Source: Clostridia bacterium (lineage in GTDB: Bacteria > Bacillota > Clostridia > Oscillospirales > Acutalibacteraceae). Taken from it: DNA of 64,000 bases. Position numbers and translations under genes: made by a program. How positions within the stretch are numbered: position 1 is the first letter of the stretch; each line of letters opens with the position of its first letter. The DNA lies in assembly GCA_024404145.1 (NCBI GenBank), contig JAKSQK010000001.1, positions 62,001 through 126,000 of the forward strand, given 5' to 3'. Below are positions 30,709 to 45,464 of the stretch, piece by piece. The notes beneath the pieces were generated by a model. It ran no database searches. It worked only from the letters and a program-made list of their open reading frames with translations, and had not been told where the DNA came from.

Positions 30709-30737
30709 TTGACAAAATATGTCGAAACATATATAAT
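30709..30737 (+). promoter_or_regulatory. SigA promoter with possible Spo0A box, for the dockerin gene
   Basis: TTGACA at 30709-30714 and TATAAT at 30732-30737, 17-base spacer. Inside the spacer lies TGTCGAA (30720-30726), the core of the Spo0A box; binding there would block RNA polymerase. The box is seen; repression is inferred. Confidence 0.65.
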
Positions 30738-30790: not shown

Positions 30791-32278
30791 ATGAAAAAGT
30801 TTTTGTCGATTATTTTAACGGTGTTAATAATTGTATCGACCTGTTTTTGTATGTCTGTCGGAGCGCTTAGCGTTGTTGCAACGGGTAAAACGATTTCCGA
30901 GACAAAAATGTATTCAAACGCAGGAACTGTCGGTCATCAGTTAAAGGGCGAAAAAACCGAAATAATTGCGACAATACCTGCCAATACCAAAGTCGATATT
31001 TACAGCAGTAAAGATGATGCCGACGGCGATAGATGGTATTATGTTAAAACTTCGAACGGAAAAGTAGGTTATATTGTAGGAACAAAGATATTAAGAGATT
31101 CTACAAGACTTTTTGATGCTGATTTTGATAAAAACCTTAAAAATTTCCCGAAGGAGTATCAGGCATCGCTTAAAGCATTGCATAAAGAATTTCCAAACTG
31201 GCGGTTCTATGCCGAGCCGACCGGCTCAACCTTTGAAGAGGCGCTTGATGCCGAATACCGTCCTAAAGAAAAAACCCCGCTTAAATTAGTTGAACTTACA
31301 TATATGGGCGAAGAATGGCGAGACGAAAGGGCAAAAATCGTAACCAAAGACGCTAAGGGCAACGAAATTGTAAGCTGGGCAAACGGAGAGGGCGTAAAAG
31401 TAGACGGGAAAGTTCGCTGGACCTATGCGAGTAGGTATGCCATTTCCTATTTTATGAACCCGACGAACTTTTTGAATTCAAAAGATATTTTTATGTTTTT
31501 AACGCTTTCGTATAATGAAAAAACCCAGACAAAAGATATCGTTAAATCGGTTGTAAAGAATACTTTTCTTGATACACCCGAATACATAGATATTATAATG
31601 AAAGCCGCCAAGGAATCGGGGCTAAGCCCTATTGCCATAGCATCGCTTATAATTATTGAGCAGGGAACAAGCGGCAGTTCTCAAATGATTTCGGGAACGG
31701 TTGAGAATTATAAGGGGTATTATAACTTCTTTAATATCGGCGCCTCTGATTCAAACCCCATAATCAACGGACTTAAAGAAGCGAAAAAAAAGGGTTGGAA
31801 TTCAAAGGAAAAGGCAATAATAGGCGGAGCAAAGGATTGCCAAAACGGTTATATTTCAGTCGGTCAGGACACATACTATTATATGGACTATAATGTTGTG
31901 ATTAAAAACTATTCAAAGCAGTATGCAACCGCTATCTACGATGCCTATAACAAGGGCAGAAAAATGGCGGCGGGTTGTACCGCAAACAAAAGTTCAACCC
32001 TCGATTTCGTAATACCCGTTTTTTCTTCCGAAATACCCGAAATTTCGAAGCCGACACCGGCTCCGAAAGTAATAAAATACGGCGATGTTAATAAGGATAA
32101 CAGTATTGATATAATCGATGCTGCAATGATAAGAAAACATATTCTTAAAATATCAAAGCTAACGGTAAGTAAAAATCCGGAAGCGGATATAAATAAGGAC
32201 GGCACAATAGATGTTATTGATGCCGCAAAAATGCGAAAACATTTGCTTAAAATTGAAATTATCGGAGGCAATAAATGA
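30791..32278 (+). CDS. secreted SH3b-glucosaminidase-like hydrolase with C-terminal dockerin
   Basis: A 495-residue secreted protein. Order: signal peptide (1-27), an SH3-type wall-binding domain (about 35-115, ending GYIVGTKIL), a glucosaminidase-like lysozyme domain (about 130-400, SGLSPIAIASLIIIEQG with a likely catalytic Glu, YYNFFNIG), and a type I dockerin (about 435-490). The dockerin has two Ca-binding repeats, DVNKDNSIDIIDAAMIRKH and DINKDGTIDVIDAAKMRKH. It should cut peptidoglycan glycans and dock to a cohesin; the next gene, overlapping as ATGA, codes one. ATG at 30791 with AGGTGAT upstream; an earlier TTG is rejected. Confidence 0.8.
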   Translation: MKKFLSIILTVLIIVSTCFCMSVGALSVVATGKTISETKMYSNAGTVGHQLKGEKTEIIATIPANTKVDIYSSKDDADGDRWYYVKTSNGKVGYIVGTKILRDSTRLFDADFDKNLKNFPKEYQASLKALHKEFPNWRFYAEPTGSTFEEALDAEYRPKEKTPLKLVELTYMGEEWRDERAKIVTKDAKGNEIVSWANGEGVKVDGKVRWTYASRYAISYFMNPTNFLNSKDIFMFLTLSYNEKTQTKDIVKSVVKNTFLDTPEYIDIIMKAAKESGLSPIAIASLIIIEQGTSGSSQMISGTVENYKGYYNFFNIGASDSNPIINGLKEAKKKGWNSKEKAIIGGAKDCQNGYISVGQDTYYYMDYNVVIKNYSKQYATAIYDAYNKGRKMAAGCTANKSSTLDFVIPVFSSEIPEISKPTPAPKVIKYGDVNKDNSIDIIDAAMIRKHILKISKLTVSKNPEADINKDGTIDVIDAAKMRKHLLKIEIIGGNK

Positions 32279-33681
32279 AAAAATCAATTTGTGTTATAAT
32301 AGCGGTTTTGATGCTTTTGCCGATATTATCGGTAACGGCTTTTGCCGATTCGGCAAGTATAACGGTAAGTGCGCTTAATGTTACATTGGGAAATACCGTT
32401 ACGGTCAATGTTAACTATTCTTCATCGTTATCGCTTTATTCTTCGACCGGAAGTTTAACCTTCAATTCTTCGGTACTTAAATATGTTTCGGGCGGTTCTT
32501 CCGTTTCGGGCTCAACGGTTTATCTTTATAAAGACCATAACGGAGAACGGAAAACAAGCTATACCGTTACATTTAAGGCGATTGACGAGGGAACGAGTTC
32601 GCTCAGCGCCTATGTTGAGGGCTCGGACGGCTCAAAAAAAGGAAAAGCGAGTGCCAGTAGGGTAATTACCGTTTCAAGACCTGCTCCGTCTTCCAATGCA
32701 AATCTATCATATTTGAGCATAAAGGGTGCTTCCATCAGTCCGTCATTTTCGCCCTATGTTACAACATATTCCGCATCGGTCGCAAACGATATAGATACCA
32801 TTTCGATAAGTGCCTCGGTTGCAAACGGCAAGGCAACTCTTATGGGAATAGGCGATAAACATCTTGATGAGGGCAATAACAGTTTTACAATAACCGTTAC
32901 GGCGGCTTCGGGCGCAAAAAAGAGTTATACATTAAATGTAAGACGGCGTCTTGTAGGTGAATTTACCGAAGCGGAAAAACTTACTGTTTCGGTTAACGGC
33001 GAAACAAAACATATAGTCAAGAATATCTCGAAAATGACAGAAATATCAGGTTTTACCAAAACCGAAACAACATATAAAGATATAAATGTCGGCGTTTTGT
33101 CAGATGTCGGCAACAAATATTTTATCTATTATCTAACCGATGCCGACGGCAAAAATCCCGAACTTTATGTTAAAAACGATAACGACGAATTTTCAAAACT
33201 CCCCTATATAAAAAAGGGCAAAAAGATTTATATTGTCGAAAATGCAGATGATATTTCCGAAATAAAGGAAGGATATTGCCAAAAAACATTTCCGTTTGAA
33301 AATAACGAGTTTTCGGCTTTCGGATTTAACGACCCTTCAATGAACGATTTTTATATTTTAAGTCTTTTTGATGGCGAAAAAAGTGAATATTTTACCTATG
33401 ACAGCATAAATAAAACCCTTCAAAGGTTTCCGCTTATTTCGTCTTTTGCCGACCCCGAAACCGAAACAGAGGAAACAGAAATTGTTTCTACTGATATTTT
33501 GGGTAGGGTTAAAAATTTTGTAATTTCTATGTCAATGTTGGAAAAGATATTATCAGTTTGGGCGGTTTTATCTATTATCGGAATTATAGTTTTAACCATT
33601 TTAGCTGCTAAAAAACCGAGAAAATCATTCGATTTTGATTTTGATGACGATACAGCCGATTTTGATGATTATTTGAGATGA
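32275..33681 (+). CDS. membrane-anchored cohesin-like / cadherin-like domain protein
   Basis: A 468-residue surface protein. Order: signal peptide (1-24), cohesin-like beta sandwich (about 27-135, GNTVTVNVNYSSSLSLYSS and GSLTFNSSVLKYVSGG), a cadherin-like domain of the PF12733 type (about 141-225, LSIKGASISPSFSPYVTTYSA, ending SYTLNV), an uncharacterised region, a membrane helix (about 425-447) and a short acidic cytoplasmic tail rich in Asp. It can hold dockerin proteins at the membrane. Coupled (ATGA) to a dockerin-bearing gene, so a partner pair is likely. Cohesin identity is by pattern, not by search. Confidence 0.7.
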   Translation: MKKSICVIIAVLMLLPILSVTAFADSASITVSALNVTLGNTVTVNVNYSSSLSLYSSTGSLTFNSSVLKYVSGGSSVSGSTVYLYKDHNGERKTSYTVTFKAIDEGTSSLSAYVEGSDGSKKGKASASRVITVSRPAPSSNANLSYLSIKGASISPSFSPYVTTYSASVANDIDTISISASVANGKATLMGIGDKHLDEGNNSFTITVTAASGAKKSYTLNVRRRLVGEFTEAEKLTVSVNGETKHIVKNISKMTEISGFTKTETTYKDINVGVLSDVGNKYFIYYLTDADGKNPELYVKNDNDEFSKLPYIKKGKKIYIVENADDISEIKEGYCQKTFPFENNEFSAFGFNDPSMNDFYILSLFDGEKSEYFTYDSINKTLQRFPLISSFADPETETEETEIVSTDILGRVKNFVISMSMLEKILSVWAVLSIIGIIVLTILAAKKPRKSFDFDFDDDTADFDDYLR

Positions 33682-44137: not shown

Positions 44138-44162
44138 TGGATTATAATGAGAGGTGAGCGCT

Positions 44163-45464
44163 ATGGCAAACCGTATAAATAAGATTATTGCGGTATTTCT
44201 TGCGGTTATTTTTATGTTTTCGGCTGTGCCGACGGTATTTTGTTCGGCAAAAACGATAAACGGCCCTAAGGTTTCTTTAACGGTTTCCGAAATAGAGGAT
44301 AACGGTGTTAAAGTAACTATCGGATTTACCGAAAATCCCGGAATCGGCGCAATGACCTTTTCGGTGATGTACGATAAAAATTGTTACAGTGTCGCCAAAA
44401 ATATGTTCGGTTATTCCGAATATTATACATATACGCTTAGGGGAAGTATGATTTCCGACCATAGTGAAAGCGGGTATGTCAGCTTTCTTTATGTAACTAA
44501 CGGCGGAGAGATTTATAATTCTACCGGAACATTTCTCGAACTGCGTTTTTATGCGAGAAATAAAGAACCCGGTAAGCATTGGTTTAAGATAGGCAACATA
44601 AACCCGATATCAAAAGGCGAAAATTTAGAGGGATGTTTTGCAAATTTCCAACACGATAAATTTGAAGCAACCGCCGAAAAGAAATATTGCTATTATCCGC
44701 CTACTGCCGATAATCCGTGTGTCCGCCATGATTACGAACTTGTCGACACCGTAAACCCGACCTGCATTACCAATGGATATTCGGTTTATAAATGTTCGAT
44801 TTGCGGAAAAACTATTTCGGATAAAGAAGTTCCTGCGTTAGGCCATGATTTTGAAAATGAGTGGACGGTTGACCGCCCCGCTTCAAAAGGTGTTGCAAAA
44901 ATAATCTCCCGCCACTGTAAAAGATGTAACGAAAAAACCGATATAAAATATGTTTCCGAGGATGAGGATGATACTTCGGGCGAGAGCAAAACCTCTTCAA
45001 AGAGCAATACAGTTTCAAAAACAAGCGAAACCTCTTCAAAACCCGAAAAATCCCCCTCTGATAATACCTCGAAAAACAAAAATACTTCAACCGCCGTTTC
45101 TGATACATCTAAGCCGAGTTATCCGACCGACAGCAAAGAAAACTCCAGCGAGGATAATAAGGAAAACGGCTCTGAAATATCTAGTGTTATCAGCAATATT
45201 TTTGATATAATCAGTTCTAAAAATAAGGACAAAAACGAGAGTTCAAATAAAGATGCGAATGACGGCAAAGACATTCTTTCCGCTCAAGAGATAGTAGATA
45301 AAATAGACAGCGGAGAATCGGTATTTTTCGGAGATTTTGAACTGCCGAAACGGGCAAAAACTTTGGGCGATATTGTCGCCAAAATTTCTGTTTATCTTTT
45401 CGGAATTGACGGAAAATCCGGAATTATAAAACTGATTTTCGATGCTCTTAAAAAACTTTTTTAG
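44163..45464 (+). CDS. secreted cohesin-like protein with Cys-pair motif and Ser/Lys linker
   Basis: A 433-residue exported protein. Signal peptide (1-30); a beta-rich domain (about 35-170) with KVSLTVSEIEDNGVKVTIG, GIGAMTFSVMYDKN and GTFLELRFYARN, similar to cohesins; a zinc-ribbon-like segment with CSICG and HCKRC pairs next to ALGHDFENEWTVD; a long low-complexity linker of S, T, K, N and P; and a short helical C-terminus. No membrane anchor or sortase motif is evident. It is alone, with its own promoter and terminator. A wall-related or dockerin-binding role is inferred, as for the pair at 30791-33681. Confidence 0.6.
   Translation: MANRINKIIAVFLAVIFMFSAVPTVFCSAKTINGPKVSLTVSEIEDNGVKVTIGFTENPGIGAMTFSVMYDKNCYSVAKNMFGYSEYYTYTLRGSMISDHSESGYVSFLYVTNGGEIYNSTGTFLELRFYARNKEPGKHWFKIGNINPISKGENLEGCFANFQHDKFEATAEKKYCYYPPTADNPCVRHDYELVDTVNPTCITNGYSVYKCSICGKTISDKEVPALGHDFENEWTVDRPASKGVAKIISRHCKRCNEKTDIKYVSEDEDDTSGESKTSSKSNTVSKTSETSSKPEKSPSDNTSKNKNTSTAVSDTSKPSYPTDSKENSSEDNKENGSEISSVISNIFDIISSKNKDKNESSNKDANDGKDILSAQEIVDKIDSGESVFFGDFELPKRAKTLGDIVAKISVYLFGIDGKSGIIKLIFDALKKLF

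Follow-up and report, generated by a model that had tools for sequence, protein, structure and literature searches.

Two adjoining genes in the 64,000-nucleotide stretch of gut-bacterial DNA analysed here (hereafter, the window) appear to code for the two halves of a private plug-and-socket, which would depend on calcium and keep a peptidoglycan glucosaminidase attached to the cytoplasmic membrane on its outer side; we give this reading a probability of roughly 70%. The product of gene 1 would be secreted and carry a dockerin plug at its C terminus, and that of gene 2 would cross the membrane once and hold out a cohesin socket, with two more beta domains serving as its stalk. With a single promoter and coupled translation, both proteins could be made in matched amounts; they would bind one another in a calcium-dependent manner, which would fix the spacing between the SH3b-glucosaminidase and the membrane. 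The docked enzyme would then shorten glycan strands as the wall grows, a task comparable to that of SagB-SpdC in S. aureus. This docking reading draws on domain content, the folds of the models, conserved adjacency, exclusivity in some relatives and outlier dockerins. The features concerned are, in the order of their positions in the window:

30709..30737, + strand: putative sigma-70 promoter, TTGACA-17-TATAAT (12/12 consensus positions; a consensus match only)
30791..32278, + strand: gene 1, predicted secreted glucosaminidase with C-terminal dockerin, 495 aa (domain matches, AlphaFold model)
30791..30874, + strand: gene 1 signal peptide, approximate (sequence MKKFLSIILTVLIIVSTCFCMSVGALS; model helix 2-18)
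30878..31096, + strand: gene 1 SH3b domain (SH3_3, 25.4 bits; PDB SH3b family-profile matches, E 4e-10; beta fold in the model)
31109..32026, + strand: gene 1 SagB/Atl-like glucosaminidase region (PDB SagB/AtlE matches; Foldseek; invariant E290 at 31658-31660)
32078..32248, + strand: gene 1 type I dockerin with two calcium-loop repeats (Pfam PF00404; structure match to 2ccl)
32275..33681, + strand: gene 2, cohesin protein with membrane anchor, 468 aa (ATGA overlap with gene 1)
32275..32349, + strand: gene 2 signal peptide, approximate (sequence MKKSICVIIAVLMLLPILSVTAFAD; model helix 2-14)
32350..32676, + strand: gene 2 divergent cohesin domain, aa 26-134 (orthologues, PDB profile search, Foldseek; pLDDT mostly >95)
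32707..32949, + strand: gene 2 cadherin-like beta-sandwich domain, PF12733 (E 3e-10, aa 145-225; 30/30 orthologues)
32965..33453, + strand: gene 2 conserved all-beta juxtamembrane domain, without Pfam family (alignment; model pLDDT ~95)
33535..33603, + strand: gene 2 single transmembrane helix, aa ~421-443 (hydrophobic ILSVWAVLSIIGIIVLTILAA, then KKPRK; model helix 421-446)
33613..33678, + strand: gene 2 short acidic tail, presumably cytoplasmic (alignment consensus)

The start of gene 2 (32275) falls inside the end of gene 1 (32278), ATG and TGA overlapping as ATGA with both genes on the + strand, just as the initial annotation had noted. The putative promoter lies 53 bases upstream of gene 1, and AGGTGA directly precedes the first ATG of that gene. 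The same annotation had placed no carbohydrase genes near the pair, and none was seen among the window ORFs that we read; by Pfam the pair has no carbohydrate-binding module (CBM), and it has no scaffoldin, gene 2 carrying one cohesin. What defines a cellulosome component, namely a multi-cohesin or CBM scaffoldin and plant-polymer enzymes, was not found in the pair. Elsewhere in the window (44154-45464), a secreted 436-aa protein carries a Cys-containing motif; a cohesin match at 44304-44570 is sub-threshold, with 21.6 bits in the genome search, and is absent in the protein scan of this 436-aa protein.

Gene 1 does end, as first described, in a full two-repeat type I dockerin that follows SH3b and glucosaminidase-like domains. 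PF00404 (Dockerin_1) covers aa 430-486 with its model complete from 1 to 57 (E 9e-15, 55.1 bits against a cut-off of 22.9; E 7e-16 in the profile search of the genome), both repeats are intact (DVNKDNSIDIIDAAMIRKHILKI, DINKDGTIDVIDAAKMRKHLLKI), and the modelled dockerin matches the C. thermocellum Xyn10B dockerin 2ccl with a TM of 0.91 and an rmsd of 1.6 A. All of the scored repeats (92/92) retain the calcium ligands at positions 3, 5 and 12, and 89/92 retain the one at position 1, in a favourably selected set, the scoring having left out repeats that do not match the search pattern. The SH3_3 match at aa 56-95 lies slightly below the 27-bit Pfam cut-off. The SagB-like glucosaminidase occupies aa 177-386 (PDB SagB match, E 5e-19), and the AlphaFold model of the protein (pLDDT 88.9) resembles S. 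aureus Atl, SagB and AtlE as well as the C. perfringens autolysin; ranks 1-11 in Foldseek are glucosaminidases without exception, which gives a glucosaminidase fold. The conserved catalytic Glu, E290, is invariant across the 50 sequences compared. By Pfam there is no match to PF01832 in the gene 1 protein, which also scores far below the SagB equivalog cut-off (90 bits against 425 bits for NCBIfam NF052642). Going by its homology to SagB/Atl, the enzyme would act on the cell's own wall.

The membrane helix first ascribed to gene 2 is borne out by the hydrophobic stretch and the KKPRK behind it. The tail beyond is presumed cytoplasmic because of the signal peptide and these positive residues, from which the orientation is deduced; in the alignment consensus of gene 2 relatives it carries an FDxV-like motif. 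The cohesin-like domain of the initial annotation requires more care. The window protein's own Pfam scan does not return it: PF00963 Cohesin gives no match at its curated cut-off, and the only Pfam offer for aa ~26-134 is a weak Big_5 (E 0.005). However, PF00963 is matched by 18/30 gene 2 orthologues at E <=0.01 (best 1.7e-8), and the family profile, when compared with PDB sequences, retrieves nearly exclusively cohesins (best E 6e-8). In Foldseek, the AlphaFold model (pLDDT 89.5) has a C. perfringens cohesin-FN3 construct at rank 1 and a cohesin-like module at rank 3 (2w1n, E 4e-8; 2jh2, E 6e-6; TM to target 0.65); many other Ig-like folds match this model likewise, and the cohesin claim therefore rests on the sequence evidence. 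Orthologues, PDB profile search and AlphaFold model taken together, the N-terminal domain of the window protein is a cohesin too divergent for Pfam.

The two genes adjoin on one strand in most genomes of the sampled genus, and this conserved adjacency excludes chance for the gene pair. A scan of named genomes, covering the best 80 of at least 553 relatives, gave loci labelled Clostridia, Oscillospiraceae, Lachnospiraceae, Pseudoflavonifractor, Erysipelotrichaceae and Bacilli. When a dockerin-bearing enzyme had sufficient downstream sequence, a gene 2 homologue almost always followed immediately on the same strand (46/49), and the family model found the cohesin part in 40 of those 46. Because the flanking genes vary between lineages, it is the two genes that form the unit. 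The enzyme family is patchily distributed, being present in 33/297 genomes of an order-wide sample. In two otherwise distant species (G033 and G009), the enzyme body is 97% identical in DNA and was therefore recently shared; the dockerins are 50% identical and so are the cohesins (50%). Dockerin and gene 2 remain those of each species, diverged to the background level, as would be expected if a dockerin must fit the resident cohesin; this is a single event, and its breakpoint lies in a repetitive linker. The idea that close sisters had swapped dockerin and cohesin together was considered for these genomes and rejected, since a sliding window points to the recent sharing of an enzyme body by distant species. 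The glucosaminidase domain of both loci (L161 4038-5600 in G033, L162 5954-7531 in G009) is circularly permuted: the part from ~W336 on precedes the N-terminal part, the catalytic-Glu region being kept. Tree-like co-divergence of dockerin and cohesin was dropped as support, the signal being weak (partial correlation 0.19) and no stronger than with the third gene 2 domain (0.27).

We searched 61 genomes of the genus for dockerins and cohesins, and eleven candidates again with loose limits. Eight genomes (G001, G003, G010, G013, G015, G022, G184, G350) have one dockerin above cut-off and one cohesin even at E 0.5, adjoining in 8/8; the single cohesin match is over cut-off in seven, and weak sub-threshold dockerin matches are present in some. 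Completeness is 99% for G184 (about 10 contigs), 98% for G350, 96% for G001 and 95% for G013, and lower for the other four. These genomes are related and therefore do not represent eight independent events; what they show is that the pair remains once other dockerins and cohesins are absent. In four dockerin-rich genomes (G019, G034, G011, G076), no sampled dockerin diverges more than the paired one, whose mean similarity is 0.20-0.33 against 0.55-0.80 for the next lowest, a gap that is an upper estimate because the best-scoring dockerins were sampled, which favours typical ones. Unpaired copies of the enzyme in G019, G034, G011 and G020 (the latter by inspection) carry the common-type dockerin of their genome. 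Separately, G019, G034, G076 and G007 have about 28-32 dockerins each and fewer cohesins, with recognition residues that are nearly uniform in the dockerins of the three read; these are likely cellulosome-like systems in small gut genomes.

The source genome (1.28 Mb, 98.8% complete), which was searched by family only, contains two dockerins besides that of gene 1, and its cohesin-like domains outside gene 2 number at least five; one of these belongs to a gene 2 paralogue, and the weak match at 44304 in the window is also among the other cohesins. We therefore infer the exclusivity of the pair from its relatives. The first of the two additional dockerins is at the end of a 2400-aa leucine-rich-repeat protein, which also has a cohesin and adjoins another cohesin gene, and the second is in a 691-aa protein. 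A search for more dockerins had been proposed at the outset, and in the two that it yielded the positions usually involved in recognition are not occupied as in gene 1, a difference that speaks for separate specificities as far as residues can tell. It could still be that the gene 1 dockerin mainly docks another cohesin, such as the membrane-anchored 213-aa mini-cohesin (contig C11) or the surface proteins of contig C9, the pair being part of a larger surface network. The other cohesins and dockerins of the genome, and a gene 2 paralogue that has no neighbouring dockerin, are in keeping with such a network, but we consider it unlikely given the eight related genomes that have no other cohesin or other dockerin over cut-off, the differing recognition positions in the source genome itself and the outlier position of paired dockerins in dockerin-rich genomes. 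The C9 proteins form a second possible dockerin-cohesin neighbour pair of the source genome (L009, G000 C9, 1894-10878), in which the 2400-aa protein, ending in cohesin and dockerin, has a CotH-kinase gene upstream of it and, behind it, a cohesin protein that contains Cys-rich repeats. The 213-aa protein (L011, G000 C11, 3956-4597) combines one cohesin with a membrane helix at its N terminus and is a second possible membrane socket. The gene 2 paralogue without a nearby dockerin enzyme occurs in two genomes (L012 3826-5271 in G000 C1, L155 6949-8388 in G008) and has a neighbourhood common to both.

Some dockerin-less enzymes of the family bear, by Pfam, SLH (one), GW repeats, choline-binding repeats or CWB2. 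All of these are surface-anchoring modules, and their presence in dockerin-less relatives suggests that the dockerin could likewise be the anchoring device of the enzyme. In one genome (G035), the enzyme ends in choline-binding-type repeats and gene 2 was not detected. Yet 16 dockerin-less enzymes, a Lachnospiraceae-rich group, still adjoin a gene 2 homologue, so that the partnership is broader than dockerin-cohesin and involves another contact or a looser functional link. The idea that dockerin loss is always accompanied by cohesin loss was rejected: in G002 the enzyme bears SLH, but a cohesin-like domain is still present in gene 2. One may envisage that the partners cooperate via the cadherin-like or the juxtamembrane domain; gene 2 would then regulate the hydrolase or act as its sensor, and the dockerin would be a dispensable addition in some lineages. 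Consistent with this, dockerin-less pairs exist, mostly in Lachnospiraceae, their gene 2 homologues keep a related N-terminal domain, and gene 2 possesses an acidic tail as well as a third domain that is conserved. However, PF00963 is found in 1/17 partners of dockerin-less enzymes (G002 included) against 19/46 partners of dockerin enzymes, counts that ignore kinship and leave out the window protein, the top entry of both scans but without a PF00963 match in either; contact through the other domains therefore strikes us as improbable. The third gene 2 domain (32965-33453), a confident all-beta fold, is kept with the pair even at many dockerin-less loci. The self-contained membrane-docking complex of the initial annotation is largely supported: the two-gene unit, the exclusivity in eight genomes and the outlier dockerins uphold it, and the other dockerins and cohesins of the source genome and the dockerin-less, Lachnospiraceae-rich pairs qualify it.

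That the complex instead digests foreign polymers (mucin, chitin or the wall of other bacteria) as a minimal cellulosome-like feeding device seems to us very improbable: cohesin-dockerin complexes mostly serve digestion, Limousia has one that degrades mucin (PMC12997984) and other genomes of the genus are dockerin-rich, but here one enzyme faces one cohesin with neither carbohydrate-binding module nor scaffoldin, the catalytic domain is of the SagB/Atl class, the pair is kept in small genomes without other confident dockerins, and the perfect sigma-70 consensus upstream suggests steady expression.

The preferred reading, a glucosaminidase docked at the membrane, invites a wider proposal, which we advance tentatively and would not bet on: a widespread envelope system, spanning Clostridia and part of the Bacilli, would hold a peptidoglycan hydrolase by means of a cohesin receptor dedicated to it in the membrane, and its specificity would be insulated from the digestive cohesin-dockerin network of the same cell; wall upkeep would be an older or parallel use of this coupling and a possible source of cellulosomes. 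Cohesin-dockerin has been studied as cellulosome glue and as an engineering tool, and to our knowledge the coupling is known almost only from plant-fibre-digesting complexes. Our search found no description of a wall-hydrolase/membrane-cohesin pair in the open-access literature, subscription papers lying outside its scope. If docking is true, (i), cohesin-dockerin coupling also serves the cell's own envelope; (ii), orthogonal natural cohesin-dockerin pairs become available for engineering; and (iii), gut anaerobes have a calcium-controlled counterpart to SagB-SpdC. Genomes with this pair alone make the docking prediction directly testable.

Several known systems resemble the pair in part. The type I complexes of cellulosomes (C. 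thermocellum, C. cellulolyticum, A. cellulolyticus) share a dockerin with nearly identical fold and calcium loops and a partner with the cohesin fold; unlike them, the window pair is without scaffoldin, carbohydrate-binding module or plant-fibre enzyme and consists of one plug and one socket, the latter in the membrane. The non-cellulosomal cohesins of C. perfringens (2jh2, 2w1n) are the best cohesin matches of the gene 2 model and also occur outside cellulosomes, but they are carried by glycoside hydrolases (GH84C/NagJ), whereas in the window it is a membrane protein that bears the cohesin and a wall hydrolase that bears the dockerin. The Limousia mucinolysome (PMC12997984) is likewise a cohesin-dockerin system of gut Clostridia and includes a cell-wall-anchored cohesin protein; in contrast to the window pair, it combines numerous enzymes that degrade mucin with sortase-anchored scaffoldins bearing several cohesins, and a wall-hydrolase pair was not found in the accessible part of that report. 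In S. aureus, SpdC binds SagB directly and sets glycan length, a membrane protein thereby modulating glycan cleavage (PMC12272431). As in the peptidoglycan release complex SagB-SpdC (PDB 6u0o), a SagB-class glucosaminidase is here associated with a dedicated membrane protein, gene 1 aligning to SagB by sequence and structure. However, SpdC belongs to the CAAX protease family and is integral to the membrane; Pfam finds no match to that family in gene 2, a single-pass beta-domain protein and hence not an SpdC-type partner, and the contact in the window pair would be dockerin-cohesin. Most likely, the pair works like SagB-SpdC using unrelated parts.
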